Positions 4,578-57,774 of a DNA stretch of 64,000 nucleotides are shown in pieces. Where the stretch lies: contig NC_087078.1 in NCBI RefSeq assembly GCF_026151205.1, forward strand, positions 3,861,675 to 3,925,674, written 5' to 3'. The notes under the pieces are model-generated. The model was not told where the DNA came from. It ran no database searches and worked only from the letters and a program-made list of their open reading frames with translations. This DNA comes from Bolinopsis microptera. Taxonomy: Eukaryota > Ctenophora > Tentaculata > Lobata > Bolinopsidae. The translations under genes and the position numbers were made by a program. Numbering within the stretch: position 1 is the first letter of the stretch; every line of letters begins with the position of its first letter.

Positions 4578-5582
4578 GGTTTACAGAACAAGATAATTTA
4601 CCAGCAAATACTAGTTGTCAATTGATGCACTGATTACAAGGAAATGCCACATTTAGCATTTATTCTTAAAGAAAAGTCTTCAAGTTTACTTACTGTTAAT
4701 ATATCGTCATCATGGGAATTTTAGTATACTACTGAATAACTTCATTGTGGAGAATATTAATCTATCTTCGCAAAGTGTGAACCAAACAATATTAACATCA
4801 ATTAATAAGCAGAGAATAAAGCTGTTTAATAGAGAGAGAGAGAGTGTGCCTCAAATATAGCTGGAAACTATCGATCAGTCTCAATGAAGTTAGTGTAATG
4901 ACACAAGTAACACCCCCTATCAAGATTGCTGAGAAAGTGCGATGAGCCTGGATTATGGGCATTTGAAAGTGCGATTGTCACGTGTCACGGGGGGGGGGGG
5001 GGGGGGGGATTTTTGGCCTAATTCAGCATATCCTGTCAAATTGCAGTATAACTGCACGAAATTCGCCCCTTGTAGTCCAAATTTACATTTCTTATTACTA
5101 GAATTCATTCCTCAAAACAAGTGTTTCAAAAATTGTTCCAGATCCTTCCTCCTTGCGCCCTTTCTGAGAGTGAAACCTACTGTAACCATATTTTTCAAAA
5201 TTTACAGGAATTAATCCTTTGATATGACCCTTAAATTAGCGCAAGAAAATCTTGCTAGAATTACCATTTCACTGAATCTCCTGAAACTATTTTGAGAGAA
5301 TACGATATGCTTGAACTAAACTTATTTTGCTAGAACTGCTTGCACGCCCTAATATGCATTCAAAATCGTATTATTTGATATTTGTTATTGAAACTGTGTT
5401 TGAAAATTATCTCTATCGCCAAATTTTTCATTGCAAAAATAAGTACCAGTAAAATGATCTTCAACGGGCTTCGGACCGCCTACATATGGCATCATAGAAA
5501 AGTGGCTAACCAATCGCGCCACTGAGTATACATATATAATAATATTTGTGTATATATATACGCGCGTTCATGCTAATTGCTT
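4578..5582. other. Intergenic DNA with poly-G tract
   Basis: AT-rich sequence left of the copia element. It holds a GA microsatellite near 4834-4852 and an uninterrupted run of about 20 G at 4989-5008, preceded by CACGTGTCAC, which resembles the GTGTCA-poly-G end of the mosaic repeats at 10304 and 21852. It could be a decayed end of that repeat. No gene is seen. Confidence 0.5.
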
Positions 5583-5731
5583 TGTTAAGTTGCTTTATAT
5601 CATTAACTATGTATTTCCCAGGGCTTTGCTGTATATAAGCGTATGACTTGATACTGTATGACTTGATACGATTCATTACTACCTTTCATATAACAACGGT
5701 GTAGTTACTGGTACCAAACACAAGGTTAACA
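5583..5731 (+). repeat. 5' LTR of Ty1/copia element (149 bp)
   Basis: Starts TGTTAAG and ends GTTAACA, so the termini are the inverted pair TGTTAA/TTAACA with canonical TG...CA. It contains a TATATAAG box at 5632-5639. The same sequence recurs, as far as I can read without a mismatch, as two pieces at 10287-10303 and 24386-24523. The flanking tetranucleotide GCTT (5579-5582) recurs just after the 3' LTR (24524-24527) and is the probable target-site duplication. Confidence 0.9.
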
Positions 5732-5752
5732 GTGGTTGCAGGAAGTGTGAAA

Positions 5753-8239
5753 ATGTCAAAGCAAAGCCCTCCTAGGATTGGTGAGGATTATGGAGCATGG
5801 AAAAAGGAGATAAAAATCTGGGAGTTAGGGACTGATGTCGCGGTGAAGAAACAAGCTCCTACGGTTATTGGGGTCTTGGGTGGAGACTACAAAACTGTTG
5901 CAATTGAAATGTCTCTAGAAGATATGGTCAAAGAAAATGGTTTGGAACTTTTAATCACACATCTAGACAAGGTGTTTGAGAAAGACAAAAATGATATGGC
6001 CTATGAAAGGTATGTTATTTTTGAAGATATAAGAAGAAATCAAGATGAAGAAGTCGCAGACTTCATGATTCGTTTTGACCGTGCTATGAAACAAGCTAAA
6101 GCTATTGACATTACTTATCCTGATAATGTGCTTGCTTTCAAATTGATGAGGTCCATGGATCTGAGTGCTGATGAACAGAAAATGATCATGACTGCTTGCA
6201 CTGATATTAAATATGACTCAATGCAGTCTGTCATCAAACGTATCTTGGGTGGAAAAACCAGCACATGTGGATCAAATGATATCAAAATTAAGCAGGAGAC
6301 ACAAGAGTCGTTCTATGCCAGACAAGGACAAAAGAACTACCAAAACTATAGATCAGGGAACAAATTCAGCTCAAATAATAATCAACAGTATTACCCGAAC
6401 GGTAATCAGCAGCAACATCAGGGCAAGAACAAGTACATAAATCGAAAGGACAAGTATGGGAACATAATGTTGTGTTTGATATGTGATTCAAAGTATCATT
6501 TGGTGCGAGAATGCCCACGCAAAAGTACACCATCCTTCTTTACACGCTCAGTCCAAGGAGAGCTGGAAAGTGAACCTAATCTGGAGAACGTTACAGAGAA
6601 GGTGAAACTTCAATATTTCACCAAAGAGTATTCCTCACCCCAAGCTATTTACCTTGCTGAATCATTTGGTAATGCTATTTTGGATACTGGTTGTACCAAA
6701 ACAGTGTGTGGTGAATTATGGTTGAAGGATTTTGTGAAAAAGTCCAAAGTTGTTCTCGAAACCTCTCCTTCTTCGGCTGTGTATAGGTTTGGTGATGGTG
6801 ACCCTATCAGAGCAACAAAACAGGTTCTTCTGCCAATGAATCTTGATGGTGAGTTGTTTGATCTAAAATGTGATGTGGTAAATGATGATATACCTCTTTT
6901 AATTAGTCAAGAGACTATGCAGAATACTGAGACTGTCATTGATATGGTCAACAACCGTGTTAGTATGTTTGGGAAGGACATTCCTACTTCTTTCACCTCC
7001 ACTGGGCTAATAATGATTGATATGTTGCCTCACATTGAGATTGATGATACATTTGAAGACCACTTAGAAGAAGCAGCTACCGTTAATGTCTGTCAGTTTG
7101 TCGAAAAGAAATTGGACAAAGCTTCGGTGAAAAAGCTTCATTGTCAGCTGGGACATGGTTCATATGACAAGCTCAGGCGACTACTTAGTGATGCTGGTTT
7201 GGGAGATGTAGATTTGTTTAGAGTTCTACAAGAGGTCATTGAAACTTGTGAGATCTGTCAAGTTTACAAGAAGGCTCCTGCTAAACCATGCACATCATTT
7301 CCAAGAGCTCGAGGAATAAATGAATCAGTTGCCATTGATCTGCACAAGCTGGATAATAATTTGTACTACCTGCACATCATTGATGAATTCTCTCGGTTTA
7401 GTCAGGCTGGGATTGTCAGGTCCAAGAAGACTAGTGAGATTATTGATGTTCTCAGTCAGAAATGGATATCCGTCTTTGGGTGCCCTTCATTGATATTCTC
7501 TGATAATGGCGGAGAGTTTTGTTCCAAAGAGTTTGAAGATTGGACACAGAATTTCAACATTGAGCATAAGACTTCTGCTGCCTATAGTCCTTTCTCAAAT
7601 GGAATAGTTGAGCGGCATAATGCTGTAATTTCCTTGATGATGCTGAAACTGGCTGAAGAATTTCCAAATACTAATGTTGATACCATACTCAGCTGGGCGT
7701 GTAGTGCAAAGAACTCACTCAGTACTGTTGCGGGTTTCTCACCCAATCAGCTCATGTTTGGGACACAAACATACCTGCCCAATGTCCTCAACTCAAGTCC
7801 ACCTGCTCTTGAGAATGAAACATCAAGTAAAGTAGTCGCTAGTCATATTAATGCAATGAACGCTTCTAGAAGGATGTTTCTAAGCTGTGAAAGCTCCAAT
7901 AGGATAATGAAGGCTTTGAAGAAGCCACTGAGAACTTACACAACACCCATAACCTTTGGAAGTAAAGTTTACTACAAAGCTGTGGGATCAGACAAGTGGA
8001 AGGGCCCTGCAACGGTAATAGGACAAGATAGTACAGTGGTATTTCTTCGTCAAGGAAGCTTTGTAACAAGAGTACATCAGAGCAGGATCTCTCTTGTGAA
8101 GGACCAGGTTCCCTATGAATCTAAATCTGATAGTACAAATGGTCCAATTCAGGATGTTGAGTCTATCAAGCAAGTGTACTTAGAATACCAGGTCTTGACT
8201 GTTCTAGTGATGATGTTCCAGTCCAAGAAGTTGAAGTAG
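5753..8239 (+). CDS. Copia Gag-protease-integrase polyprotein
   Basis: The reading frame is open from 5732 (GTG), but the first ATG, MSKQSPPRIGED, is at 5753. Gag (UBN2-like, GAWKKEIKIWEL) comes first, then a CX2CX4HX4C zinc knuckle (CLICDSKYHLVREC, about 6470-6512), an aspartic protease with DTG (AILDTGCTKTVCG, about 6670), an HHCC zinc site (HCQLGHG ... CEICQVYKK) and a DDE integrase core (IDLHKL ... IFSDNGGEF ... SNGIVERHN). The frame ends at TAG 8237-8239. The homologous acidic linker (VPVQEVEVEPS) continues in another frame, so a frameshift lies near 8175-8190. The GTGGTTGCAGG just after the LTR is the probable primer binding site. Function: capsid, maturation and chromosomal integration. 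Confidence 0.9.
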   Translation: MSKQSPPRIGEDYGAWKKEIKIWELGTDVAVKKQAPTVIGVLGGDYKTVAIEMSLEDMVKENGLELLITHLDKVFEKDKNDMAYERYVIFEDIRRNQDEEVADFMIRFDRAMKQAKAIDITYPDNVLAFKLMRSMDLSADEQKMIMTACTDIKYDSMQSVIKRILGGKTSTCGSNDIKIKQETQESFYARQGQKNYQNYRSGNKFSSNNNQQYYPNGNQQQHQGKNKYINRKDKYGNIMLCLICDSKYHLVRECPRKSTPSFFTRSVQGELESEPNLENVTEKVKLQYFTKEYSSPQAIYLAESFGNAILDTGCTKTVCGELWLKDFVKKSKVVLETSPSSAVYRFGDGDPIRATKQVLLPMNLDGELFDLKCDVVNDDIPLLISQETMQNTETVIDMVNNRVSMFGKDIPTSFTSTGLIMIDMLPHIEIDDTFEDHLEEAATVNVCQFVEKKLDKASVKKLHCQLGHGSYDKLRRLLSDAGLGDVDLFRVLQEVIETCEICQVYKKAPAKPCTSFPRARGINESVAIDLHKLDNNLYYLHIIDEFSRFSQAGIVRSKKTSEIIDVLSQKWISVFGCPSLIFSDNGGEFCSKEFEDWTQNFNIEHKTSAAYSPFSNGIVERHNAVISLMMLKLAEEFPNTNVDTILSWACSAKNSLSTVAGFSPNQLMFGTQTYLPNVLNSSPPALENETSSKVVASHINAMNASRRMFLSCESSNRIMKALKKPLRTYTTPITFGSKVYYKAVGSDKWKGPATVIGQDSTVVFLRQGSFVTRVHQSRISLVKDQVPYESKSDSTNGPIQDVESIKQVYLEYQVLTVLVMMFQSKKLK

Positions 8240-8307
8240 AGCCTTCTACAAACCCTGTAGCTGAAGTTAATTATCCAGCTGAAATCGAAGCTGAGTCACC
8301 TACAAGT

Positions 8308-9666
8308 TTGCCTGAAATTGCTGAGTTAGATAACAACACAGTCAGTACTAAGCAGGATCAAAGAATTGACAAGCCAACTGCCATTAAGAGAGGCTCAACA
8401 ATAATCTTTGTTGATGATGGGACACAGTATGAGGCTGTTGTATTGTCAAGAGGAGGAAGGGCTAATGGTAAACATAAGAACTGGTACAATGTTCATGTTA
8501 AAGAGACAGATGAAGTCATATCTATAGATGTATCTACCATTGATGACTTCACTGTACTGAACAAAGATGAAGGTGATGAGTTTGATTTCGACCCAATTGA
8601 AGATGTCTATGCTGTTCAATTGGATGACTATGCAACTGAAAAGCAGTTAGAACTGAGTTCGTGGGTAACTAACAAGGTGTATGAAGAAGTTCAGATAGAA
8701 GAGCTAGATGCTAGAAAAATTATCACAAGTACTTGGGTATGTAAACAGAATGGCGATACCAAAAAGGCTAGACTAGTTGCTCGGGGATTTCTTGAGGATA
8801 CATCGTCCATCCTAAGTGATTCCCCTACTTGTTGCAAAGAGAGTCTTCGTTTGCTTCTTGCCATCATTGCCGGAAAGAATTGGATTGTACAAGCATTAGA
8901 CATTAAGTCTGCTTTCTTGCAAGGGAACGACATGATGAGACCTGTGTACATGAAACCTCCTAAAGAAGCAAAAGTTGCCTCAGAGGTAATATGGAAGTTA
9001 AAAAAGTGTGTCTATGGGCTAGTGGACGCCAGTCTTAAGTGGTATCAGCGAGTTGCTGATTGTTTAATTGATCTTGATGGTGTGAAATCGAAAGACCCTG
9101 CTGTGTTTTACTGGAGAAAGGATGGAGACCTTGAAGGGGTTCTTGCCTTGCATGTCGACGATTTCATGTTTGCTGGATCAGCGAAGTTTCTTGAAGAAGT
9201 AATGACAAAAGTAAAATCTGAATTCCTCATAAAGACTGAAGAAAAATCTGCTTTCACTTACCTTGGGCTAGAAATTCGTCAAAAGGCTGACTATATTGAG
9301 ATGGATCAGAAGAAGTATATTGAAAAGCTTTGTCCCATTGATATACCAGGTGGCGCCCTTAAAACCAGGGACCTCTCCAGTGATGAGAAGAATACTCTTA
9401 AGTCTAAGCTGGGCCAGATCCTTTGGGTATCCAACCACTCTAGGCCTGATGTGTCATTTCAGGTTTGTGTTACCAGCACAGGTATCAAAGATGCCACTGT
9501 GAAGGACTTTCATGACTGTAATCAGGTCATAGAAAGGCTAAAGAGAAAGCATGTCTGTATCAAGCATCACTCACTTGGGAATCTGAAAAATCTGAAGTTT
9601 ATCCTCTTTAGTGATGCCTCACACAAAAACCTCTACAATGGAGCTTCACAGGGTGGATATATGTAG
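8308..9666 (+). CDS. Copia reverse transcriptase segment of the polyprotein
   Basis: This is a continuation of the copia polyprotein after the frame break near 8180; in this frame the sequence is open from about 8180, so the Met at 8308 is not a true start. Reverse transcriptase motifs: ALDIKSAFLQGN (finger/palm), VYMKPPKEA, KKCVYGLVDASLKWYQR, and the catalytic LHVDDF (the copia YVDD box with His for Tyr). It ends ASQGGYM-stop, where the RNase H domain would continue as GGYVVFIK in the next frame: a single-base indel near 9660. It would synthesise element cDNA in the virus-like particle. Confidence 0.88.
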   Translation: MPEIAELDNNTVSTKQDQRIDKPTAIKRGSTIIFVDDGTQYEAVVLSRGGRANGKHKNWYNVHVKETDEVISIDVSTIDDFTVLNKDEGDEFDFDPIEDVYAVQLDDYATEKQLELSSWVTNKVYEEVQIEELDARKIITSTWVCKQNGDTKKARLVARGFLEDTSSILSDSPTCCKESLRLLLAIIAGKNWIVQALDIKSAFLQGNDMMRPVYMKPPKEAKVASEVIWKLKKCVYGLVDASLKWYQRVADCLIDLDGVKSKDPAVFYWRKDGDLEGVLALHVDDFMFAGSAKFLEEVMTKVKSEFLIKTEEKSAFTYLGLEIRQKADYIEMDQKKYIEKLCPIDIPGGALKTRDLSSDEKNTLKSKLGQILWVSNHSRPDVSFQVCVTSTGIKDATVKDFHDCNQVIERLKRKHVCIKHHSLGNLKNLKFILFSDASHKNLYNGASQGGYM

Positions 9667-10286: not shown

Positions 10287-10303
10287 TGTTAAGTTGCTTT
10301 ATA
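10287..10303 (+). repeat. First 17 bp of the split 3' LTR
   Basis: TGTTAAGTTGCTTTATA, identical to the start of the 5' LTR and placed right after the polypurine tract. The LTR stops at TTTATA and the poly-G end of the inserted repeat begins at 10304. Confidence 0.9.
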
Positions 10304-12927
10304 GGGGGGGGGGGTGTCATGTCCGTCTATGTCCGCCTATGTCCTGTCCTTTTTGGATTCTATGAGACAACGGACGTGTTTTTTGGGACATTGGCGGACA
10401 CGGACGGACATTGGCGGACACGGACGGACATTGGCGGACTCGGACGGACATTGGCGGACTCGGACGGACATTGGCGGACTCGGACGGACATTGGCGGACC
10501 CGGACGGACATTGGCGGACTTGGATGGACATTGGTGGACATTAGCGGACATTGGTGGACATTAGCGGACAATGTACTAATGTACAGAGTACTGAAGAGTA
10601 CTGAAGAGTACTGAAGAGTACTGAGGAGGATGGCTGAGAAGGATGGCTGAGGAGGATGGCTGAGGAGGATGACTGAGGAGGATGACTGAGGAGGATGACT
10701 GAGAGGGAGGAGAAGGATCAGGAAGACCCAGGAGGAGGAGGAGGAGGACCCAGAAGGAGGACCTAGGAGGAGGAGGAGGAGAACTGAGGAGGATGACTCA
10801 GGAGGAGGAGGACTCAGGAGGAGGACTAAGGAGGACTGAGAAGGAGGAGGACTGAGGAGGATGACTGAGAGGGAGGAGGAGGAGGAAGAGGAGGAAGAGG
10901 ACTGAGGAGGAGGAGGAGAAGGACTGAGGAGGAGAAGGAGGACCCAGGAGGAGGAGGACCCAGGAGGAGGAGGACCCAGGAAAAGGCCCCAGGAGGAGGA
11001 GGAGGACTGGGGAGGAGGAGAACTGTTGAGGACTGATGAGGAGGACTGAGGACGAGGAGGAGGAGTAGGAGGATGACTGAGGAGGGGAGGAGGAAGAGGA
11101 CTGGGGAGGATCAGGAAGACCCAGGAGGACCCAGGAGGAGGAGGAGGAGGAGGAGGACCCAGGAGGAGGAGGAGGACTGAGGAGGACTGAGGAGGAGGAC
11201 TGACGATGACTGAGAAGGAGGAGGACTGAGGAGTACTGCGGAGGATGGCTGAGGAGGATGGCTGGGGAGGATGGCTGAGGAGGATGACTGAGGAGGATGA
11301 CTGAGAGGGAGGAGGAGGAGGACTCAGGAGGAGGACTCAGAAGGAAGAGGAGGAGGACTCAGGAGGAGGACTTAGGAGAAATGAGAAGGAGGACTGAGGA
11401 GAACTGAGGAGGAGGAGGAGGAGGACTGAATAGGAGGAGGAGAAGGAGGGGGACTGGGAGATGACTGGGGAGGAGGAGGACTGATGAGAAGGATGAGGAG
11501 GAGGACCCAGGAGGAGGAGGACTGAGGACCCAGGAGGAAGAGGAGGAGGATGAAGAGGAGGAGGACCCAGGAGGAGGAGGACTGAGGAGGAGGACTGAGG
11601 AGGACTGAGGAGGACTGAGAAGGAGGAGGAGGACTGAGGAGGACTGAGAAGGAGGAGGAGGAGGACTGAATAGAAGGAGGAGGGGGACTGGGGGAGGGTA
11701 CCGCGACAATTGACCCCCCGACAATTGACCCCCCGACAATTGACCCCCCGACAATTGACCCCTATGTAATTACACTGGGGTCAATTGTCGCGAAATCTAG
11801 GCTTGAGTACGACAATTGACCCCCCGACAAGTAACCCCCCGACAATTGACCCCCCGACAATTGACCCCCTATGTAAATACACTGGGGTCAATTGTCGCGA
11901 AATCTAGGGCTCAGTACGACAATTGACCCCCCGACAATTGACCCCCCATGTATTTACACTGGGGTCAATTGATCGGGTTAGGGTCAGGGTCCTGGGTCAG
12001 GATCCTGGTTCAGGGTCCTGGGTCAGGGTTAGGGTTAGGGTTAGGGTTAGGGTTAGCGTTAGGGTTAGGGTTAGGGTTAGGGTTAGGGTTAGGGTTAGGG
12101 TTAGGGTCCTGGGTCAGGGTCAGGGTCATGGTTAGGGTTAGGATTAGGGTTAGGGTCCTGGGTCAGGGTTAGGGTTAGGGTTAGGGTCCTGGGTTAGGGT
12201 TAGGGTTAGGGTTAGGGTCAAGGTCAGGGTCAGGGTTAATTGTATTAAATCATATTGTCGGGGGGTCAATTGTCGGGAGGTCAATTGTCGGGGGGTCAAT
12301 TGTCGCCCACCCTGGGGGAGGACTGAGGAGGAGGATGGAGGACTGAGGAGAAGGATGAGGAGGAGGACTGAGGAGGACTGAGGACTGAGGAGGAAGAGGA
12401 GGAGGATGAAGAGGAGAAGGACCCAGGAGGAGGACCCAGGAGGAGGACTCAGGAGGAGGAGGAGGACTGGGGAGGAGGAGGACTGTTGAGGACTGATGAG
12501 GAGGACTGAGGACGAGGAGGAGGAGTAGGAGGAGGACTGAGGATTTGAGGAGGAGAGGAGGAAGAGGACTGAGGAAGATCAGGAAGACCCAGGGGGAGGA
12601 GGAGGAAGAGTAGGAGGAGGAAGCATCTAAATGTTATTTCCATTTTTGTCCGTTTTTGTCCATTTTTGTCCGTTTTTGTCCGCTCTATTTTTTGTCCGTT
12701 TTGAAAATATAGGGTACCGAACGGACAAAAAACATGATCCCCCTATAACAGCAAAAATTGAACATTTTATTTAGCAATTTAGGTGTCCATTAATGTCCGC
12801 CTATGTCCGCCTATGTCCGTCTATGTCCGCCTATGTCCGTCTATGTCTGCCTATGTCCGCCTATATCCGCCTATGTCCTGTCCTTTTTGGATTCTATGAG
12901 ACAAGCGGACATAGACGGACGTGACAA
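10304..12927 (+). repeat. Mosaic repeat, copy 1
   Basis: Order inside: poly-G, TGTCCGTCTATGTCCGCC repeats, TTTTTGGATTCTATGAGACAA, a 20-bp minisatellite (CATTGGCGGACTCGGACGGA) at 10388-10560, a long purine tract (GAGGAGGACTGAG units) to 11697, a nested element 11698-12312, more purine tract, TTTTTGTCCG repeats, TGTCCGCCTATG repeats, a second TTTTTGGATTCTATGAGACAA and AGCGGACATAGACGGACGTGACA. The poly-C end present in copy 2 is missing; gene sequence follows directly at 12928. Open frames across it (proline/serine- or arginine-rich) are repeat artefacts. Confidence 0.85.
11698..12312. mobile_element. Nested element with CGACAATTGACCCC arms and TTAGGG array
   Basis: Left arm: repeated CGACAATTGACCCCC; right arm: the inverted form TCAATTGTCGGGGGG (12255-12305). 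Between the arms are two TACACTGGGGTCAATTGTCGCG hairpin-like segments and about 220 bp of TTAGGG-type repeats with variants (TCAGGG, TCCTGGG). It sits within the purine tract, and TGGGGGAG on both sides (near 11689 and 12314) looks like an 8-bp target duplication. The second copy lies at about 23153-23765. Confidence 0.65.
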
Positions 12928-14831
12928 GGTGTTTGAACAAAAGAGCACTTCTTGCACACCCACCGAGAGAGTTTACCGGTCCTACTCCTCTGGAGCTGTC
13001 CTCTCTAGTGACCTAACCAAAGCAGCAGGAAAACATTGCGCCTTTCCGAGCCAATGTAAGCTCTCTAAAACTGGGAGCAGTCTTCAAGCAGCAACCTGCA
13101 CCGAACTGCTGAGGATCAGAGACGAGATAACCAGCGGTGGATACACGGCCACATGCCGGCATGATCAAACCAACTGGAATGTTAGCCCTCCAGAAAAGAA
13201 AGGATGTGGTGCTGATGGAGTATGTACTGATCCTAATTACAGCATCTTTCTTCAGAGGAGACTTTCTCCAGCAGGTTGGTTTACACGTTTTTAATTTCCG
13301 GACGACATGTTTGTTGTAATTGTCTAACATTGTCACATTAAATCGTATCGCAACATTGTTCACCCGTTTCAGCCCGTTTTAGGATTACGTTTTGAAATTT
13401 TTAGACGGCATACAATCAATTTTTGTTAACCCTATTCCAATTATTCCGTCAAAGTTGACTATCTTTAATAAACCTCCACCAGGTCTACGCCGATCAAGTG
13501 TACAAGGACAATCTCTTCTAAAAGCTGGAGTACAAATAGACAGCCTGGTATCCTCCTCTTACGAGCGTTCTAAGAATTCTGCTAAACAAGTAGGATACTG
13601 GTTTGGGATCACTGAGGTTAAAGAGGAGCCTCTTCCTTTGGACAACGGTGTACACGGCGCCCAGGATTACGAGAGGAAGGCTGGATATGAACCAAAGACT
13701 GATTCTGATCGGGGTTCAGATATCAAGAAAATCATGCGAGTTCGTATGAGGAATTGGCTACAAGAGGATTGGGACAAGCAGACTGAAGGAGGGGTAAGGT
13801 TTACTTATAGCCATGGAGGTACAATGGAAAATGCTTTCGGACACTCATTTGACGAAGGTGACTGTGCTTGGTCGAAGCCAACAGACAAAACTTACGATCT
13901 GAACGAGCCTTTGACTGTGGTTCTAAGCCAAAAGGAATTTCCAAACGAAATGGAAGTTGGAACAAAGAAGATTGACTTGTTTGCGGTGCTGAGCCCAGAG
14001 CAGACACAGAAGATGGCCCAGTGCACTGAGCTGAGAAAGGACTATGAGGATAGTATTTCATCATCAGATACTACGATTCTAGCAGCTGACAAAGACAAGG
14101 ATCTTGAAATAACAGAAGATGAATTTACCAAATTCTGTGAAAATTCAGTGGATACTTCAAGAACATGCTCTGATCTATGGAAGTCTATCCTTTCGCTGCA
14201 AGCAAAGCCGTACTGGCAGAAAAACACAGTTTCCACTAGCTTTTTCATCGGAGAGCATGCTTACTTTAACGGGGGGTGGTATGAAAAGGAGCACAGTTAT
14301 GGTGCCTGGCAATTTCCTTATCGTGGGACAACACTGGACACAATCAGACCCACAGTTTCAGAAATGAAACAAATCCTAGCCCCTTTGGACGAGCTGATAA
14401 GAGCTGATCTTAATGATAAGGAAACGAAAGCAGTTGTAGACTGTATCCCACAAGAAAGCACAATCCAACAGTTCAGCAGCTGTGCTTCCTCTCTGCTGTC
14501 CTACAAGCCCATACCAACCCGCAATCGACCTGAAGATGACGTGCATCTGACAGATGATTACCCCATTCTAGGACAGAAATACGCCTACCCGACCACAATA
14601 ACCATCACCCCCGTCCCTAACCCTGTGATGAAACTAGCCATGTGTTTGGTGGAGAAGAGACACATCACAGCAGAGAGGATGTCCCAGCTAATGGGTTGTG
14701 AATTAGCCGGGTCTGCAAATCAGAAGGGTGCATCGTGCACACCCTCTGAAAATGGATACAGGCTCAACTCCGGATATCGTCACCAGTTTGTCTTTGTGGT
14801 GGTGCTGACAATTATCTATAACATGTTTTGA
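12928..14831 (+). CDS. 5'-truncated gene for a Cys-rich secreted or anchored protein with an EF-hand loop
   Basis: Exon about 12928-13274 (frame open through the repeat border; donor GCAG|GTTGGT) joins in phase to exon 13483-14831 (acceptor CACCAG), which ends at TGA. About 560 residues remain. Features: many cysteines; an EF-hand loop DKDKDLEITEDE (about 14088-14123) with acids at positions 1, 3, 5 and 12; a motif SCTPTERVYRSYSSG near the start and a second copy, SCTPSENGYRLNSG, near the end; a hydrophobic C-terminus (FVFVVVLTIIYNMF) that could be a GPI signal or membrane anchor. I do not recognise the family. Upstream exons and promoter are absent: the gene begins exactly where mosaic repeat copy 1 ends, so it is probably a captured 3' fragment. 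Confidence 0.6.
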
Positions 14832-16774
14832 GAGCGGGATAGTCGGAAACTTACTTGTATTTAGTAGATAAACTTTTTCTTTACAGTAGACTTATCGTAT
14901 AATTACATTTTTATATAAGAATATGTATCGAGATTCGAGAGGTGATAATTTAAGTTCCAAACAACTATCAGACTGGATGAATTAGAGATAGGTGATATTA
15001 TATTATATATAATTATATATTATAAAAGGAGTTGTTACGGTAAAGTTCCAGCATCGTGGTTTTGATAGGTCTCTCTCTACTCGAGCTGCTATGTCGAGAT
15101 CCAACATGGATTATTTATTTATGGCTGCGACGGCTTTGATTGTCCCAAACATTTTTTCTTTCTTTAAATATGAGCTGTCTCAAACTTGTCCAGCTTCTAG
15201 TTCTCGATAAAACCTTCCCAATATGATCATCGTGGAAAAACTCAAGCGGCACTGCTGTACATATAAACATTTCAGAGTTAGAAAATATCCGTGAGCAACG
15301 CTCAATTAGTTACATTTTTATGGCAAATCATATTGAACAACTAGCCAGTCAAAGTATCACTGCCATCAGAAAGTGAAATTGTGTGTACATCTGACTGACA
15401 AGAAACAATTAAAGTACCACAAGACGACATTACGACCAGATAATCGCTTTGTACCATCTGTTTGAGATTGGAGCTGTCTTTGAACTACCCATAAATACTT
15501 TCGGCAAAGAAAAAGTATCAAAAAAATCTGAAATGGTCATACTTCAGTACACTTTTAAAGAAAAGATGTATTATATCTTCTATTTTTATATATATAGCAC
15601 TAAAGAGGTTGCCTCAAAACTCACCTGGTACTAAAACTCACACGTGAGGCATTAGGAGCTGTAAAGCATATCATTTTGTAATTTTGTCATCCTTACTCTG
15701 CCTTCAGTTAGATTAACTCATGGGTCAAACACCCACCACTGCTGCTCTCTTGAGCCAGATGAAAACTATTTTATAACCATTCTTCATTTTTTAAAGCTAT
15801 TAACTGCTCAATGCTATTTTAAGACCGCCCACGGGCCAAGTGAGCAGTAATTAAGTAGCAGGTAAGTAGCAGGTAAGTGGCTAGTAAGTGGCCATTAGTG
15901 ACTAGCCGACCAGTGGCCGACCAGAAGCTTGCTATGAAGCGGTGGTGGTTGGTGTTTGACCTCATTCTCAATTCACTACTTACTATTTATAGGTTATTGA
16001 AGTTAGACCAAAGGTACCATTGTAACCTGAATAACTTGTTTGTTGATCCTCTTGCCCCGGGACGCTCTCGTATGAATTATGTAGCATTCCCTGGAGAGTG
16101 GGTCTGGAGCGGTGGTATATATTTGACTAAGTTACCATCACTTCTGGCAGGGAAAGCAGAATAGAACAATGATAGAACAATGATATTGTGCGGCATATTT
16201 TAGAGCAACTTGTCTAATAGACTTACTGACTAAATGACACATAAATGGCACGTGAGCGTCGTTGGAATGCTACATAATTCATATGAGGGCGTCTTGGCAA
16301 GGGACTTGAAGCAGCTGGAATATCAGACAAGAGAGACGTAGAATACAATAGGTCTCTTTTGTTCATATGTTATAGTATGAACATTGTAGCTCCAGAATTA
16401 GAACAAGTTTTATTGTTAGTCTTTGTTCCTATTCCTAGCTTTGTTCTCATAAAGCTAGGAATTGTTAAGCTTCGCTTTTGGATGGAGTTAAAGAGTTAAT
16501 AGTTTCTCAGTACTTTCCTGTTTATTTACCAGGGTGAAGTATAGAGTACATAGTTTTTATGTACCGTTTGTCAGCGGTGAGCGGCAGATTTCACACTTTC
16601 TTAACTATTCGGCCGCATTTGTTGTAATTTGCTCTCCGTATTAAGACAGCATCACGTTATTCGTAAATCAGAGAATATTCTTCGATTTCATAGCCATCTT
16701 TCATTATTTTGATCTTGAATAATAACCAGTAAATAGCAACAAGCAAAACTACATTTCAACGACAATAAGACGGC
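14832..16774. other. Noncoding DNA between the two cargo genes
   Basis: AT-rich. A perfect AT palindrome is at about 15000-15024. A short array of GTAAGTGGC-type units is at 15858-15895. An imperfect inverted repeat (about 40 bp arms, CGTATGAATTATGTAGCATTCC) at 16045-16088 and 16264-16305 bounds a small hairpin element. The ORF across 15877-16164 lies in it and shows no domain. The last part is the probable promoter of the gene starting at 16775. Confidence 0.5.
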
Positions 16775-19700
16775 ATGATACGAGTAATTGTTCAATTGGT
16801 GTTGTTGGCGTTGTACACAGAAGGTAAACATCTATAAATATCATGTTGACTTGTATTGCCCAATTTGAATTAAAACGTCGAACCAATCCGATACAATGTT
16901 AATTTGTTAAATACCATGTGTGTATACTAAAATAACCATCCTTCTGCAGGATCACTAGAATACAAGTTAGCAGAACACAACACCCCAACCACATTCAACA
17001 CATCATGTGACCTGATCATACTCTCAACAAAGAACTTAGTCTTTACGCAAGGCTGGGAGGGGGATATCATATTTTTAGCGGCCACTGAAGAAGTCCTCAC
17101 GATTGGACTGCATCCGGAAAGTGCCAGCTTGGCTATCAAGAATGATGTGTTTCTAGGAGATAGGGAACAGTGGGATTTCCAGTGGGTGGAACAAGTGTTT
17201 TATCCAAACCGTGATGTTAATGCTCAATGGGAGACTACCGTTAGCTTCAATGATGACGAGCTAGTGGTAACGTGTGAAGGGGAGGTTAGGTCGTTAGGAT
17301 GCTTTATTTCAAAGTTCATAATTGTATTAATTTCTTCAGTGAGAAACGCTTCTAGCAGTTTAACATTTCAACTGGTTGAAAGATATTAGATAATTACCAA
17401 GGACTAAAATTTGTTTGATATATTTCATACCTATTGGATCTTCCTAATGCATATTAGCTAATTTAATTGAAGAAAGTGCTTAAATGCTATTAATTTCAGA
17501 CTCTAAAGATTTTAGCTGAGATCCCGTATACTGAATTAACGGGCGATAAAGATACGTTTCTGGCCAGCATTGATTCAATCTCTTTTATTCTGGAGGGGGA
17601 TAAACCTGTGGCTAGTAGAATCTATTACACCCTCAGTTGTAAAGGTAAATGTTATAATGGTTTTACATATTATAGCATTGAGCAGTTAATACCTCAAACA
17701 CACCTTATTATTAATTTAGAAAACTTAGTAAAGAAGGTAACTAATATCTGCTATTTTCAGAATCATGTGCTGCAGGACAACGTTTTGATCAGAGTAACGG
17801 CTGTGTGGAATGTCCGGAAGATACGTGGAGTGTTGCTGGAAATACAAGTCCATCTTGTACAGACTGTCCAGAAGGAAAAGGTGTTGCAGCTGGGCAGGGA
17901 AAACATTTAAATGACTGCACATGGAGTGAGTTAGACTCTGTTATAACAAAACAGTTCATCAACAATCAACTGTCAACTTTGTAGATCGAAATTGTTATTT
18001 GTTACATTAGTAAAGAAAGTTAATATCTTCTATTTTCAGAATCATGTGCTGCAGGACAACGTCTTGACCAGGTTGACGGTTGTGTAAACTGCCCGGATAA
18101 TCAGTGGAGCTCTGATGGAAATAACGCGGCTACTTGCCAGATATGTCCTTCAGGGAAAGGGGTGGCAGCTGGAGAAGGGAGAAAGGAAAGTAATTGTGCT
18201 TGGGGTAAGTTCAGTTCTTCTCTTTGGACTTTTAGTTGTGAAGTGCAAACGCTAGAAGTTGTAAATTAAGATTTTCAAGATAATGAACAATGGTTACCAT
18301 CCTTCTTTTCAGAGCCGTGTGATGCTGGACAATTCCTTCAACAGAGTATCGGCTGTGTGGAATGTCCAGAAGATACGTGGAGTGTTGCTGGAAATACAAG
18401 TCCATCTTGTACAGACTGTCCAGAAGGAAAAGGTGTTGCAGCTGGGCAGGGAAAACATTTAAATGACTGCACATGGAGTGAGTTAGACTCTGTTATAACA
18501 AAACAGTTCATCAACAATCAACTGTCAACTTTGTAGATCGAAATTGTTATTTGTTACATTAGTAAAGAAGGTTAATATCTGCTATTTTCAGAATCATGTG
18601 ATGCAGGACAACGTTTTGATCAGAGTAACGGCTGTGTGGAATGTCCAGAAGATACGTGGAGTGTTGCTGGAAATACAAGTCCATCTTGTACAGACTGTCC
18701 AGAAGGAAAAGGTGTTGCAGCTGGGCAGGGAGAACATTTAAATGACTGCACATGGAGTGAGTTAGACTCTGTTATAACAAAACAGTTCATCAACAATCAA
18801 CTGTCAACTTTGTAGATCGAAATTGTTATTTGTTACATTAGTAAAGAAGGTTAATATCTGCTATTTTCAGAATCATGTGCTGCAGGACAACGTCTTGACC
18901 AGGTTGACGGTTGTGTAAACTGCCCGGATAATCAGTGGAGCTCTGATGGAAATAACGCAGCTACTTGCCAGATATGTCCTTCAGGGAAAGGGGTGGCAGC
19001 TGGAGAAGGGAGAAAGGAAAGTGATTGTGCTTGGGGTAAGTTCAGTTCTTCTCTTTGGACTTTTAGTTGTGAAGTGCAAACGCTAGAAGTTGTTTATTAC
19101 GATTTTCAAGATAATGAACAATGGTTACCTTCCTTCCTTTCAGAGCCGTGTGATGCTGGACAATTCCTTCATCAGAGTAACGGCTGTGTGGAATGTCCGG
19201 AAGATACGTGGAGTGTTGCTGGAAATACAAGTCCATCTTGTACAGACTGTCCAGAAGGAAAAGGTGTTGCAGCTGGGCAGGGAAAACATTTAAATGACTG
19301 CACATGGAGTGAGTTAGACTCTGTTATAACAAAACAGTTCATCAACAATCAACTGTCAACTTTGTAGATCGAAATTGTTATTTGTTACATTAGTAAAGAA
19401 AGTTAATATCTGCTATTTTCAGAATCATGTGATGTAGGACAACGTTTTGATCAGAGTAACGGCTGTGTGGAATGTCCAGAAGATACGTGGAGTGTTGCTG
19501 GAAATACAAGTCCATCTTGTACAGCCTGTCCAGAAGGAAAAGGTGTTGCAGCTGGGCAGGGAAAACATTTAAATGACTGCACATGGAGTGAGTTAGACTC
19601 TGTTATAACAAAACAGTTCATCAACAATCAACTGTCAACTTTGTAGATCGAAATTGTTATTTGTTACATTAGTAAAGAAGGTTAATATCTGCTATTTTCA

Positions 19701-20844
19701 GAATCATGTGCTGCAGGACAACGTTTTGATCAGAGTAACGGCTGTGTGGAATGTCCAGAAGATACGTGGAGTGTTGCTGGAAATACAAGTCCATCTTGTA
19801 CAGACTGTCCAGAAGGAAAAGGTGTTGCAGCTGGGCAGGGAAAACATTTAAATGACTGCACATGGAGTGAGTTAGACTCTGTTATAACAAAACAGTTCAT
19901 CAACAATCAACTGTCAACTTTGTAGATCGAAATTGTTATTTGTTACATTAGTAAAGAAGGTTAATATCTTCTATTTTCAGAATCATGTGCTGCAGGACAA
20001 CGTCTTGACCAGGTTGAGGGTTGTGTAAACTGCCCGGATAATCAGTGGAGCTCTGATGGAAATAACGCGGCTACTTGCCAGATATGTCCTTCAGGGAAAG
20101 GGGTGGCAGCTGGAGAAGGGAGAAAGGAAAGTAATTGTGCTTGGGGTAAGTTCAGTTCTTCTCTTTGGACTTTTAGTTGTGAAGTGCAAACGCTAGAAGT
20201 TGTAAATTAAGATTTTCAAGATAATGAACAATGGTTACCATCCTTCTTTTCAGAGCCGTGTGATGCTGGACAATTCCTTCAACAGAGTATCGGCTGTGTG
20301 GAATGTCCGGAAGATACGTGGAGTGTTGCTGGAAATACAAGTCCATCTTGTACAGACTGTCCAGAAGGAAAAGGTGTTGCAGCTGGAGAAGGGAAAAAAG
20401 AAAGTGATTGTGCTTGTAAGTTCAGTTCTTCTCTTGTACTTGTAATCAGAAATTACCTTATCGGACATTATTAGTAAGAAAATAATTATGAACGGACATT
20501 AAAATGCACGCTAGAACCCCCAGCGTCCAATACATGTCCGTTCAAATAAAGTCCGGTAACAGATAAACGTTTGTAGCGTTTTAATTATTTTGAACTAGCT
20601 TATAAGTACCGTTATTCAACCAAACTTATTTGTTATATTCTGACGAAAACCCCAAATTCCAGTCCCGTGTTCCAACCTGGGTTCAGCTTGGGATAACGTC
20701 GTAAAAGATTTCTCACTGCCGATAGAACACGGCCAATCAGTGGAGTTCAAATGTGATCAGAAATATGTCAACATGGGGGATAAAACTGCAACATGCAGTG
20801 ACGGATCCCTACAACCTGAACCAAACTGTAGAAAAACAAGTTAG
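16775..20844 (+). CDS. Secreted protein with ten ephrin-receptor-like (GCC2/GCC3) repeats and a sushi domain
   Basis: Fourteen exons: 16775-16823, 16950-17284, 17500-17644, 17761-17925, 18040-18204, 18313-18477, 18592-18756, 18871-19035, 19144-19308, 19423-19587, 19702-19866, 19981-20145, 20254-20415, 20663-20844; 2358 nt, 785 residues, all junctions in phase. Exon 1 encodes a signal peptide (MIRVIVQLVLLALYTEG). Exons 2-3 (residues about 17-176) form a domain with few cysteines that I cannot name; faintly lectin-like. Exons 4-13 each encode about 55 residues of the type C-x-A-G-Q...GCVECP...W...G...SCTDCP.G.GVAAG...DC.W, the cysteine pattern of the GCC2/GCC3 (ephrin-receptor-like) family. Exon 14 is one sushi/CCP domain with four cysteines, then the stop. 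Likely an extracellular adhesion or recognition protein. The gene lies whole inside the composite insertion. Confidence 0.75.
17761..20415 (+). repeat. Tandemly amplified three-exon module (A-B-C)
   Basis: The ten repeat exons follow the order A B C A B C A A B C. Type A reads ESCAAGQRFDQSNGCVECP, type B ESCAAGQRLDQVDGCVNCP, type C EPCDAGQFLHQSNGCVECP. Starts of A at 17761, 18592 and 19423 are exactly 831 bp apart; an extra A exon follows after 279 bp (19702). Introns are as similar as the exons (for example ATCGAAATTGTTATTTGTTACATTAG before A and B exons), so the copies arose by recent unequal exchange. All these exons are phase 1-1. Confidence 0.9.
20450..20562. mobile_element. Short MITE with CGGAC termini in intron 13
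   Basis: Begins TTACCTTATCGGACATTATT and ends AATAAAGTCCGGTAACAG; internal ATGAACGGACATT and ATGTCCGTTCAAAT. The ends match those of the pogo-like element at 52620-53517, so it is probably a deletion derivative of that family. Confidence 0.6.
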
Positions 20845-21851
20845 AAAATTAAAGATTTTAGTTCTCACATTCTTACGAGTGGTAACTGTCGAATGTCGAT
20901 ACAACATTATCATTTTTGTATAACCATGGCTATATTTTACAATTTAAGAGAAAGAAAACGTGAACTTTGTTTGAAAATCATATTGTAGGGATATGATTTT
21001 CACACAAATTAACGCTATGTTATTTATCTTGCATTTTCAGTAAACTTTGGATCATGTGAACAATCTGATACGATCAAGTGATAACATATGATCAGTCAGT
21101 CTTCACAATTAACATTTTACGTTTTAGGTTAGTATTGGTAGTAAGAACTGCTGCAGCCGTTAAATGCAGTCAGCACTATCAAAATCTTTATGATCTGTTC
21201 GTCCAACAAGGATTCTAGTACACAGTAAAGAAATTGTTGGTGTGAAAATCTTGCATGAGATGGTCACTGGCGTTCCTGTGAAGTCATTTGGGCTGGACAG
21301 ATTTGGTGTAGGGGCATAAACGCTTAAACTCTTAAGTAGGCGTATCTTACAATTAGTAGGCGTATCTTACAATTAGTAGGCGTATCTTACAATTAGTAGG
21401 CGTATCTTACAATTAGTAGGCGTATCTTACAATTCCTCGGGGATCACAACAAAAATGTAGTATCGTGCTGAAATGACAAGTTTGTGACGGTTCATGATGA
21501 CAGTTCTCACTCGAGAAAACTGTCAATATTTTAGATGTCGTATTATCAAGTGTACCACCCTCCTGAAACTAACTTCATAAAACGGGTCACGTGACTAAAC
21601 ACAGGTCTGTATTAATCACGGCAGGTAATATAACCAGGTTAATGTATATGTAGTTCTACATTCTTTTCTAATGGTGATCACAGCTGAAGACTACTTAACG
21701 AATTGTTGCATCTTCAAAAAATTCTCCATCTCACATTTTATCCTAATGTCTGGTGATTATCATGGCCAATAACTCTACTGGTTCCTTCGCTTTCTCGGCT
21801 CAAAAGGTAAATGAAATAATTAGTAAAATAGTTAATTAACCATTTTTTAGT
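20845..21851. repeat. Noncoding DNA with a 20-bp tandem repeat
   Basis: Downstream of the sushi exon. Five head-to-tail copies of GTAGGCGTATCTTACAATTA lie at about 21336-21433. Otherwise AT-rich DNA with no recognisable coding exon, up to the poly-G start of mosaic repeat copy 2. Confidence 0.75.
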
Positions 21852-24385
21852 GGGGGGGGGGGGGGGGGGGGGGGGTGTCATGTCCGTCTATGTCCGCCTA
21901 TGTCCTGTCCTTTTTGGATTCTATGAGACAACGGACGTGTTTTTTGGGACATTGGCGGACACGGACGGACATTGGCGGACACGGACGGACATTGGCGGAC
22001 TCGGACGGACATTGGCGGACTCGGACGGACATTGGCGGACTCGGACGGACATTGGCGGACCCGGACGGACATTGGCGGACTTGGATGGACATTGGTGGAC
22101 ATTAGCGGACATTGGTGGACATTAGCGGACAAACATTTTGAGGACTGAAGAGTACTGAAGAGTACTGAAGAGTACTGAAGAGTACTGAGGAGGATGGCTG
22201 AGAAGGATGGCTGAGGAGGATGGCTGAGGAGGATGACTGAGGAGGATGACTGAGGAGGAGGAGGACTCAGGAGGAGGACTAAGGAGGACTGAGAAGGAGG
22301 AGGACAGAGGAGGATGACTGAGAGGGAGGAGGAGGAGGAAGAGGAGGAAGAGGACTGAGGAGGAGGAGGAGAAGGACTGAGGAGGAGAAGGAGGACCCAG
22401 GAGGAGGAGGACCCAGGAGGAGGAGGACCCAGGAAAAGGCCCCAGGAGGAGGAGGAGGACTGGGGAGGAGGAGAACTGTTGAGGACTGATGAGGAGGACT
22501 GAGGACGAGGAGGAGGAGTAGGAGGAGGACTGAGGAGGGGAGGAGGAAGAGGACTGGGGAGGATCAGGAAGACCCAGGAGGACCCAGGAGGAGGAGGAGG
22601 AGGAGGACCCAGGAGGAGGAGGAGGACTGAGGAGGACTGAGGAGGAGGACTGACGATGACTGAGAAGGAGGAGGACTGAGGAGTACTGCGGAGGATGGCT
22701 GAGGAGGATGGCTGGGGAGGATGGCTGAGGAGGATGACTGAGGAGGATGACTGAGAGGGAGGAGGAGGAGGACTCAGGAGGAGGACTCAGAAGGAAGAGG
22801 AGGAGGACTCAGGAGGAGGACTTAGGAGAAATGAGAAGGAGGACTGAGGAGAACTGAGGAGGAGGAGGAGGAGGAGGACTGAATAGGAGGAGGAGAAGGA
22901 GGGGGACTGGGAGAGGACTGGGGAGGAGGAGGACTGATGAGAAGGATGAGGAGGAGGACCCAGGAGGAGGAGGACTGAGGACCGAGGAGGAAGAGGAGGA
23001 GGATGAAGAGGAGGAGGACCCAGGAGGAGGAGGACTGAGGAGGAGGACTGAGGAGGACTGAGGATGACTGAGAAGGAGGAGGAGGACTGAGGAGGACTGA
23101 GAAGGAGGAGGAGGAGGACTGAATAGGAGGAGGAGGGGGACTGGGGGAGGGTACCGCGACAACTGACCCCCCGACAATTGACCCCCCGACAATTGACCCC
23201 CCGACAATTGACCCCTATGTAATTACACTGGGGTCAATTGTCGCGAAATCTAGGCTTGAGTACGACAATTGACCCCCCGACAATTAACCCCCCGACAATT
23301 GACCCCCCGACAATTGACCCCCTATGTAAATACACTGGGGTCAATTGTCGCGAAATCTAGGGCTCAGTACGACAATTGACCCCCCGACAATTGACCCCCC
23401 ATGTAATTACACTGGGGTCAATTGATCGGGTTAGGGTCAGGGTCCTGGGTCAGGATCCTGGTTCAGGGTCCTGGGTCAGGGTTAGGGTTAGGGTTAGGGT
23501 TAGGGTTAGCGTTAGGGTTAGGGTTAGGGTTAGGGTTAGGGTTAGGGTTAGGGTTAGGGTTAGGGTCCTGGGTCAGGGTCAGGGTCATGGTTAGGGTTAG
23601 GATTAGGGTTAGGGTCCTGGGTCAGGGTTAGGGTTAGGGTTAGGGTCCTGGGTCAGGGTTAGGGTTAGGGTCAAGGTCAGGGTCAGGGTTAATTGTATTA
23701 AATCATATTGTCGGGGGGTCAATTGTCGGGAGGTCAATTGTCGGGGGGTCAATTGTCGCCCACCCTGGGGGAGGACTGAGGAGGAGGATGGAGGACTGAG
23801 GAGAAGGATGAGGAGGAGGACTGAGGAGGACTGAGGACTGAGGAGGAAGAGGAGGAGGATGAAGAGGAGGAGAAGAACCCAGGAGGAGGACCCAGGAGGA
23901 GGACTCAGGAGGAGGAGGAGGACTGGGGAGGAGGAGGACTGTTGAGGACTGATGAGGAGGACTGAGGACGAGGAGGAGGAGTAGGAGGAGGACTGAGGAT
24001 TTGAGGAGGAGAGGAGGAAGAGGACTGAGGAAGATCAGGAAGACCCAGGGGGAGGAGGAGGAAGAGTAGGAGGAGGAAGCATCTAAATGTTATTTCCATT
24101 TTTGTCCGTTTTTGTCCATTTTTGTCCGTTTTTGTCCGTTCTATTTTTTGTCCGTTTTGAAAATATAGGGTACCGAACGGACAAAAAACATGATCCCCCC
24201 TATAACAGCAAAAATTGAACATTTTATTTAGCAATTTAGGTGTCCATTAATGTCCGCCTATGTCCGCCTATGTCCGTCTATGTCCGCCTATGTCCGTCTA
24301 TGTCCGCCTATGTCCGCCTATGTCCTGTCCTTTTTGGATTCTATGAGACAAGCGGACATAGACGGACGTGACACCCCCCCCCCCC
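21852..24385 (+). repeat. Mosaic repeat, copy 2
   Basis: Same order and orientation as copy 1, nearly identical, with both ends present: poly-G (about 22 G) then TGTCATGTCCG at the left, and GGACGTGACA then poly-C at the right. It lacks about 100 bp of the purine tract found in copy 1 and has small length differences in the arrays. Its right end abuts the LTR at TTTATA. It contains the nested CGACAATTGACCCC/TTAGGG element at about 23153-23765. Confidence 0.88.
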
Positions 24386-24523
24386 TTTATATCATTAACT
24401 ATGTATTTCCCAGGGCTTTGCTGTATATAAGCGTATGACTTGATACTGTATGACTTGATACGATTCATTACTACCTTTCATATAACAACGGTGTAGTTAC
24501 TGGTACCAAACACAAGGTTAACA
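24386..24523 (+). repeat. Remaining part of the split 3' LTR
   Basis: Begins with the duplicated TTTATA and continues TCATTAACTATG to GTTAACA, identical by eye to 5' LTR positions 5594-5731. GCTT follows at 24524-24527, matching the left flank of the copia element. Confidence 0.9.
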
Positions 24524-24674
24524 GCTTGACTCGAAAAAATACTACTAGATTTTCGAGAATTTCCAGGAACATTTTTCATTGAAAAGTTACCTTCTGCAAA
24601 AGGCCAATGACCAAGTTAATAGTTAATAATGGTTAATAGCCAATAGTTCTATGTTTATTGTTTACAGTATGCAC

Positions 24675-26100: not shown

Positions 26101-27715
26101 GGCACTATCCGTCGCGGAGTAGAGTCCGCGGCGGAGCCGCCGGACTCCGAGCGGACTCCGAGCGGACTCCGGCGGAGCCGCCGGACTCCGAGCGGACTCC
26201 AGCGGTGCTCCGCCAAAATGTATTTACACTGGACTCGAGTACATTTTGGCGGACTCCGAGCGGAGCCGAGCGAGCCGAGCGAGCCGAGCGGACTCCGAGC
26301 GGAATTTATATTTCGCTGCCTGGCAGCTCATTGCGCGTCGCAACGAGCTTCGTTGTTCGTTGACGTGCGACGAGCAACGAGAAAAATTGCGTGGTGCGTC
26401 GGGTGGCACATCTTAACGGGTGATACGCGTATAAATTTCGATCGCTGACGTACAGCGAACATCACAGCTGCGAGTGGCGTCAGCTAGTAGGATTTCATCC
26501 TACAATGCAAGGCACATCGCGTTCATCTAGCTAACCAGGTGCTTTCGCGCCGCTGCAGGCGCGCTTGTTCCACAAGTCATTTCCGGCGGTCTCACGCTAC
26601 TGCAAGCGATAGGGCTATACTTAGAGCAACACATCGCGCCACAAGCCATATATTTATCAACATCTTGACTAGCTACGCGGTCGTTTTCCGCATGCGCTCG
26701 CGCTGTGCTCAAAAATTGACGTCGTCAATTAATCAACATCAAGATTTTAGTTTTACATTTGACCTTTATGTCAAAAAATCTTTGAATTTTCAATCGGTGG
26801 TCGATGTTACCTGAGGACCTCAGGCTTCGTCCTTACTTCGTCACAGGACGATCGGAGCTCGAAGAGCGTAGAGAGTGCTGGCTGGCGTCGTCCTGTGATG
26901 GTCGACGTATTTTTGCTTGCTGGGATCCGGCCGAATGACGCCACATGCAACATGTAGGGTAAAACTAAAAACGCTTCCCTATATGAGACATTATAGGGTC
27001 AAAGTTAGGACTAGAATTGTACACTATTGACATTGTGAGGGTAATGGTTAAGGTTTATCACTAGCGACCTTTTCATCTGACCACAATATTGCAAAATGCT
27101 ATGTTGTATGTCACGTGACAAATTTAGCCGAGGGTCGGAAGTCAGAGGTCGGAAGTCAGTGGACTCTGTTGGAGTCCGGCGGACTCCGAGCGGAGTCCGC
27201 CGAGCTGGCGGACTCCGCCAAGCTCCGCCAAGCTCCGCCAAGCTCCGCCAAGCTCCGCCAAGCTCCGCCAAGCTCCGCCAAGCTCCGCCAAGCTCCGCCA
27301 AGCTCCGCCGGACTCCGCCGGATTCAAGTCTGGCGGAGAGGTCCGGCGGAGTCCGCCAAGCACTCCGCCGGAGTCCGCAGCGGACCGGAGTCCGCCTAGT
27401 GGCTTACTCTGCGGCGGACACTGTGCCGAGCCGCCGCGGAGCCGCTCGGAGTCCGCGGCGGACTTTAAAGTCCGCTCGGAGTCCGCTCGGCTCCGCTCGG
27501 AGTCCGCCAAAATGTACTCGAGTCCAGTGTAAATACATTTTGGAGGAGCACCGCCGGAGTCCGCTCGGAGTCCGGCGGCTCCGCCGGAGTCCGCTCGGAG
27601 TCCGCTCGGAGTCCGGCGGCTTCGCCGGAGTCCGCTCGGAGTCCGGCGGCTCCGCCGGAGTCCGCTCGGAGTCCGGCGGCTCCGCCGCGGACTCTACTCC
27701 GCGACGGATAGTGCC
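26101..27715. mobile_element. GC-rich non-autonomous DNA transposon with 8-bp target duplication
   Basis: Terminal inverted repeats start GGCACTATCCGTCGCGGAG at both ends and extend as arrays of GGACTCCGAGC/GGCGGAGCCGCC over 200 bp. AATAAAAA flanks both sides (26093-26100 and 27716-27723), an 8-bp target duplication as made by hAT-type transposases. Inside are a ten-base array (AAGCTCCGCC, nine copies, about 27216-27308), a subterminal palindrome around GTATTTACACTGGACTCGAGTAC (both ends) and GC-rich unique sequence. No transposase is seen; ORFs in the arrays are artefacts. The surroundings are strongly AT-rich, so base composition changes sharply at the ends. Confidence 0.75.

Positions 27716-41320: not shown

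Positions 41321-57774
<16,454 letters not shown>

Follow-up and report, generated by a model that had tools for sequence, protein, structure and literature searches.

The window analysed here comprises 64,000 nucleotides of contig NC_087078.1 of the ctenophore Bolinopsis microptera (C7:3861675-3925674 in the contig numbering used below) and contains a copia retrotransposon, the 3' long terminal repeat (LTR) of which is interrupted by a 14-kb block (10304-24385). The block consists of two same-direction copies of a non-autonomous transposon (A and B) placed around 8.9 kb of host DNA, and the way in which it came to lie there is the subject of this report. Genome comparisons refer to a 264.65-Mb assembly of 232 contigs, in which the matches listed lie on contigs C1 to C13 and on some of higher number (C61, C62, C94, C197). 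The features of the locus are, in window coordinates:

5583-5731, + strand: copia 5' LTR, uninterrupted, 149 bp, with TTTATA once (5594-5599)
5705-8239, + strand: copia open frame with integrase core (Pfam scan; bounds stop to stop)
8161-9666, + strand: copia open frame with RVT_2 (Pfam scan; bounds stop to stop)
10287-10303, + strand: left part of the 3' LTR, 17 bp, ending in the first TTTATA (10298-10303)
10304-12926, + strand: copy A, G11 + TGTCAT...GTGACA, inner (right) end without C tract
12927-15024, + strand: cargo piece 1, a host gene (gene 1) without the 5' part of its first exon, joined directly to A's right end
15020-15027, no strand: meeting point of the two cargo pieces in an AT-rich run; homology of the C7 type stops at about 15024, that of the C6 type starts at 15027
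15027-21851, + strand: cargo piece 2, similar to a C6 locus, with repeated cysteine-rich exons plus one sushi exon, ending in TTTAGT
21852-24385, + strand: copy B, G24 + TGTCAT...GTGACA + C12
24386-24523, + strand: right part of the 3' LTR, beginning with the second TTTATA (24386-24391)

The block starts with G11 at 10304, ends with C12 at 24385 and is bordered on both sides by TTTATA, a motif present once in the 5' LTR. The inverted poly-G/TGTCA termini and TTTATA flanks described in an earlier note on this DNA thus proved exact to the base, and its same-orientation repeats of about 2.5 kb around about 9 kb correspond to copies A and B and the 8.9 kb between them. Removal of the block together with one TTTATA (i.e. 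joining 10287-10303 to 24392-24523) yields a sequence identical to the 5' LTR (0/149 differences by script; the script spanned 151 letters, and its sole mismatch lies two letters past the LTR). The whole copia is enclosed by GCTT (5579-5582 and 24524-24527), which makes a larger rearrangement unnecessary. The empty target site, which the earlier note had proposed to look for, is represented by the 5' LTR and by 11 LTR rows from other places, all of which span query positions 43-192 or more and pass the insertion site without interruption (40 of 43 candidates scored), as expected of a macrotransposon. The block is younger than the copia element, and the very recent move deduced in the earlier note is only bounded by the identity of the LTRs.

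The poly-G-ended family and the four ends of the block

Copies A and B are both full length with two ends each, A being short of its C tract only, and differ by 22 substitutions over 2493 aligned letters inside the element (nine of them clustered in one block; the raw totals of 26 and 2497 take in four letters past A's end) and by indels of 1-111 bp. The terminal inverted repeat is exact over 21 bp with the exception of one variable letter, and is extended by poly-G; tandem sub-repeats are visible by eye near both ends, arranged differently at each. Two copies of one family, in the same direction and around non-transposon DNA, are what a macrotransposon is made of. Open frames of at least 110 aa (8 overlapping A and 8 overlapping B) are mostly of low complexity, and no transposase gene was found in either copy, three of these frames having been scanned with Pfam and giving no match.

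The divergence of the copies bears on the possibility of an assembly error, in which the LTR would contain only one transposon copy and the assembly would have switched wrongly to another locus inside the 2.5-kb repeats. The length of these repeats and the probable source assembly (wtdbg, gap-closed and haplotig-purged according to the portion of PMC10232365 consulted) speak for it. We nevertheless regard it as very unlikely: the window is free of N throughout, the 22 differing sites and the indels make A and B separable by long reads, more than one misjoin would be needed, and no repeat common to both sides was seen at either the A/gene-1 junction or the junction of the two cargo pieces.

The exact 21-bp end occurs 724 times in the genome (371 forward, 353 reverse), corresponding to about 360 copies, and the interior of the family is a GAG-rich satellite. 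Its insertion behaviour was surveyed in 35 opposed neighbouring pairs drawn from 100 listed end places (all 32 listed C1 pairs and 3 of the 10 listed C2 pairs; excluded were 13 unpaired C1 ends, 3 unpaired C2 ends and the other 7 C2 pairs). An exact target duplication of at least 6 bp flanks 32 of the 35 pairs (31 by script, and L098/L099 by eye, in which the duplication is exact past an interrupted C tract), two pairs have a duplication with one mismatch and one (L102/L103) has none. As a chance control, unrelated family copies were compared two by two, and 3 of 496 such comparisons gave a common 6-letter duplication. At least 7 G precede the left end and at least 5 C follow the right one in all 35 pairs, and for this reason we take the poly-G/poly-C tracts as part of the family termini. 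The pair without a duplication (C1:12361299-12363063) has unmatched flanks and may be a recombinant or an alternate-end product.

Two further places were considered as second composites and rejected. The first (C2:6752773-6759293) proved to be one element, with CTTACT matching outside, into which about 3.4 kb of retrotransposon-like DNA with a reverse-transcriptase-like frame (by eye) is nested; the second (C1:309288-315299) is one 6-kb element with an internal tandem duplication and its own AATAAT duplication.

When measured against this family rule, the ends of the block fall into two classes. The outer ones (A-left and B-right) obey it jointly, with G11, C12 and TTTATA, so that a family-type duplication is found at the outer ends only, as in a macrotransposon. 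The inner ones do not resemble each other. B-left has G24 and a different neighbour (TTTAGT, 21846-21851), and the C6 and C13 paralogs of this region carry TTTTTTAGT uninterrupted, so B's inner site is empty there; we read TTTAGT as the probable former target site of B itself, with B-left resembling a normal insertion. A-right is followed neither by C nor by a target duplication. The exact 17-letter end without a following C occurs at six genome places (a search restricted to exact ends, which ends with a single C would escape), and in five of them a C tract begins 1-3 letters later; A-right is the sole one of the six without any C tract. The abundance of the family could suggest two independent successive insertions, yet each should have brought its own pair of duplications, while A has TTTATA on its left only, B has TTTAGT on its left and TTTATA on its right, and the block sits inside one LTR. 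Such a history is hardly credible, and the stepwise insertions with different duplications that the earlier note had named as refuting its proposal are contradicted by these flanks.

Cargo and the kinship of its flanking copies

The first 1967 bp of cargo piece 1 are 98.9% identical to C7:20039700-20041666, with two more C7 copies at 96-99%, a fourth at 89-94% and a C13 copy at 83-86%. The first exon reaches upstream to a start codon in six rows representing these five loci, hence gene 1 is truncated at its 5' end; A and gene 1 have one letter in common at their junction, and two gene-1 frames scanned with Pfam gave no family. An open frame (12794-13294) continues from A's terminal repeats into the exon of gene 1 and, as judged by eye, reads it in the frame of the gene. 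The identity of piece 2 to C6:2042849-2049025 is 91-95% in the larger local alignments, 87.6% at its leftmost part and 88-92% in the genome-search rows; the piece contains tandem cysteine-rich exons with sub-threshold TNFR/NCD3G-like matches, together with a sushi exon above threshold. Of the complete and the truncated gene announced for this interval, the truncated one is thereby demonstrated, whereas the second is gene-like on account of its exons and only putatively complete. About two letters stand between the two homologies, and on the sequence comparisons the cargo unites two loci that are separate elsewhere in the genome.

A donor of the cargo gene had also been proposed as a check. The C6 locus is about 5-12% divergent and has no element at its site, which disqualifies it as the direct donor, and no donor was found among the candidates scored.

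Both copies hold an internal telomere-like insert, the left junction of which (as an exact 20-mer) occurs at four genome places: A, B, C13:12204855 and C5:15455295. The C13 copy lies between TTCTTT duplications and the C5 one between ATTATA, both being simple insertions. The presence of two of the four junction places 9 kb apart in one block points to a linked origin, though not to a fresh duplication; a rare insert junction common to both fits a linked pair better than a partner met by chance. In the first 1450 bp, 16 of 1336 positions separate A from B, 17 of 1411 separate A from the C13 copy and 3 of 1323 separate B from the C13 copy. Descent of the two copies from a single element through sister chromatids is disfavoured, B being closer to the C13 copy than to A.

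Of the copies compared, the one most similar to B (L038, C13:12203721-12206227) lies upstream of a gene-1 paralog (L037, C13:12193184-12195124), at a distance of about 8.6 kb, and its direction relative to this paralog is that of A in the window. Another gene-1 copy (C7:13533300-13535600, L035/L036) has a degenerate solo right element end about 1.3 kb upstream, and a stretch of about 70 bp is repeated by eye on either side of the whole segment; as a source of A this degenerate end was set aside as suggestive only.

Two further explanations of the block were weighed. In the first, a composite insertion of the maize Ac type, the donor would have contained, in this order, gene 2, B, a short spacer, A and gene 1; the right end of B and the left end of A, facing each other, would enter an unreplicated copia LTR target, replication would run through A and B into the flanks, and after abortion of the forks the flanks would be end-joined, leaving the cargo junction near 15025 as a repair scar. 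The block would then be a natural product, in an animal, of re-replication coupled to transposition. Maize products of reversed ends have this very order (duplication-element-flank-junction-flank-element-duplication, as given in the part of PMC4270019 consulted), the cargo does consist of two flanks of separate loci with about two letters between them, and A's damaged inner end resembles the fractured Ac of maize pairs. On the other hand, gene-1 homology also stops at the AT-rich run at 15025 in two other loci, each continuing differently, so that the junction may predate the insertion; a donor in which B and A are neighbours did not turn up (best 40 of 49 candidates), and no animal case stood out among the titles and abstracts listed in a literature search. 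The origin of the block's cargo junction in the same event is only putative, unlike in maize, and we consider a composite insertion unlikely.

In the second explanation, which appears distinctly improbable, A would have inserted simply at TTTATA, and a break in the C tract of its right end would have been filled with copies of part of gene 1 and of a B-bearing C6-like locus before closing on the C tract (by gap filling/template switching or by gene conversion). Such a capture would account jointly for the junction within the cargo, the truncation of gene 1 and the lost C tract, and gap filling is the route preferred for single-copy animal Pack-TIRs (terminal-inverted-repeat elements carrying captured host sequence) in the portion of PMC8277862 consulted. 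Gap filling, however, yields one element split by filler, whereas the block has two full copies with all four terminal repeats, and its breakpoints do not lie within a single element, as those of Pack-TIRs do. Moreover, random capture would hardly choose a partner with an insert junction seen 4 times in about 360 copies (724 ends), B's right end is no copy of A's (differences at 12683, 12739, 12841 and 12865), and no B-bearing template was found (best 40 of 49 candidates).

Probable movement of the pair as one unit

The 35-pair survey, the unbroken LTRs elsewhere and the empty inner site of B support the movement of the two elements as one unit by their outer ends. We therefore favour one-step macrotransposition over both composite insertion and repair-based capture, and assign a probability of roughly 55% to the block being a eukaryotic composite transposon (macrotransposon), i.e. 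a linked pair moved by alternate-end transposition. The donor would have carried two members of one rare sub-family about 9 kb apart and in the same direction, A joined to the fragment of gene 1 and B sitting in a TTTAGT target next to a C6-like gene. A transposase provided in trans would have paired the two intact ends (left of A, right of B), ignored the inner ones and, in a single transposition event, brought the whole 14-kb unit into the copia 3' LTR with a normal 6-bp duplication (TTTATA). The loss of its C tract may have disabled A's right end and so favoured the pairing with B. The outer duplication and the two unlike inner junctions would both follow from one event having used A-left and B-right.

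Several results weigh against macrotransposition. No transposase was identified for the family, either through the exact 21-bp ends diverging immediately (11 places, all T for C) or in the middles of eight long pairs, seven of which have the same satellite-like interior, the eighth being the C2 element with the nested insert described above. No match joins both cargo pieces (best 40 of 871 candidates scored), and for the C6-type flank expected to the right of B no further copy exceeded 88% (best 40 of 49 scored), i.e. no donor was found, perhaps as a consequence of the haplotig purging of the assembly. B's closer relation to the C13 copy than to A indicates that the pair is no fresh duplicate, and the exact 20-mer that defines the sub-family overlooks its diverged members. 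Furthermore, no second composite was found among the pairs read, only one other long pair with a foreign insert having been read whole.

Known systems and other features of the window

Bacterial composite transposons use their outer ends and pass over the inner ones. The earlier note had invoked this logic, and as far as the outer ends move the unit it applies to the block; the flanking copies, in which no transposase gene was found, differ from the bacterial ones in requiring an enzyme from elsewhere. Composite units of animals, called rarely documented in that note, are indeed rare, albeit known. Foldback elements, one source of such units, have long inverted repeats with tandem sub-repeats as ends. 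The foldback-bounded 'TE' of Drosophila (Ising) mobilised host DNA between two DNA elements over spans of hundreds of kb (part of PMC6431247 consulted); the block likewise has host DNA between DNA elements in an animal, but measures 14 kb and has short exact termini. Pack-TIRs, of which 370 are reported across 100 animal genomes (PMC8277862, consulted in part), share with the block, as does Ssk-FB4 among them, captured host sequence inside transposon ends and a normal target duplication.

The closest likeness in architecture is to the macrotransposons of maize Ac, known together with their excision (PMC9910405, in the part consulted): Ac/Ds macrotransposons have same-direction copies, non-transposon DNA between them and an outer-only duplication. 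In comparison, the block has a 6-bp duplication, poly-G ends, an animal host and a cargo of two sources, and its donor is not seen. Neither a ctenophore composite case nor a description of this element was found in a limited search of the literature on composite, Pack-TIR and macrotransposon movement and on poly-G ends. The kind of unit is thus already known (maize Ac/Ds and the Drosophila foldback 'TE'), the family is new, and the phylum is probably new as well.

Paired DNA transposons that carry host DNA along as a composite are well documented in maize, with few clear animal cases. The present one offers, in a single insertion, an empty target, a family with hundreds of copies as internal control, and damage to an inner end as a possible reason for the joint movement of the pair. 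If macrotransposition is correct, an abundant short element can ferry gene segments to new sites, helping to explain scattered gene duplicates.

Outside the block, the window contains a GC-rich foldback-like structure (26101-27715) with arms of 144 bp (98%) and 60 bp (100%) and tandem CGGACTCCGAG repeats, and, in its right half, long minisatellites with units of 15-35 bp (41707-42099, 47601-48192, 49439-50142 and 51873-52283).

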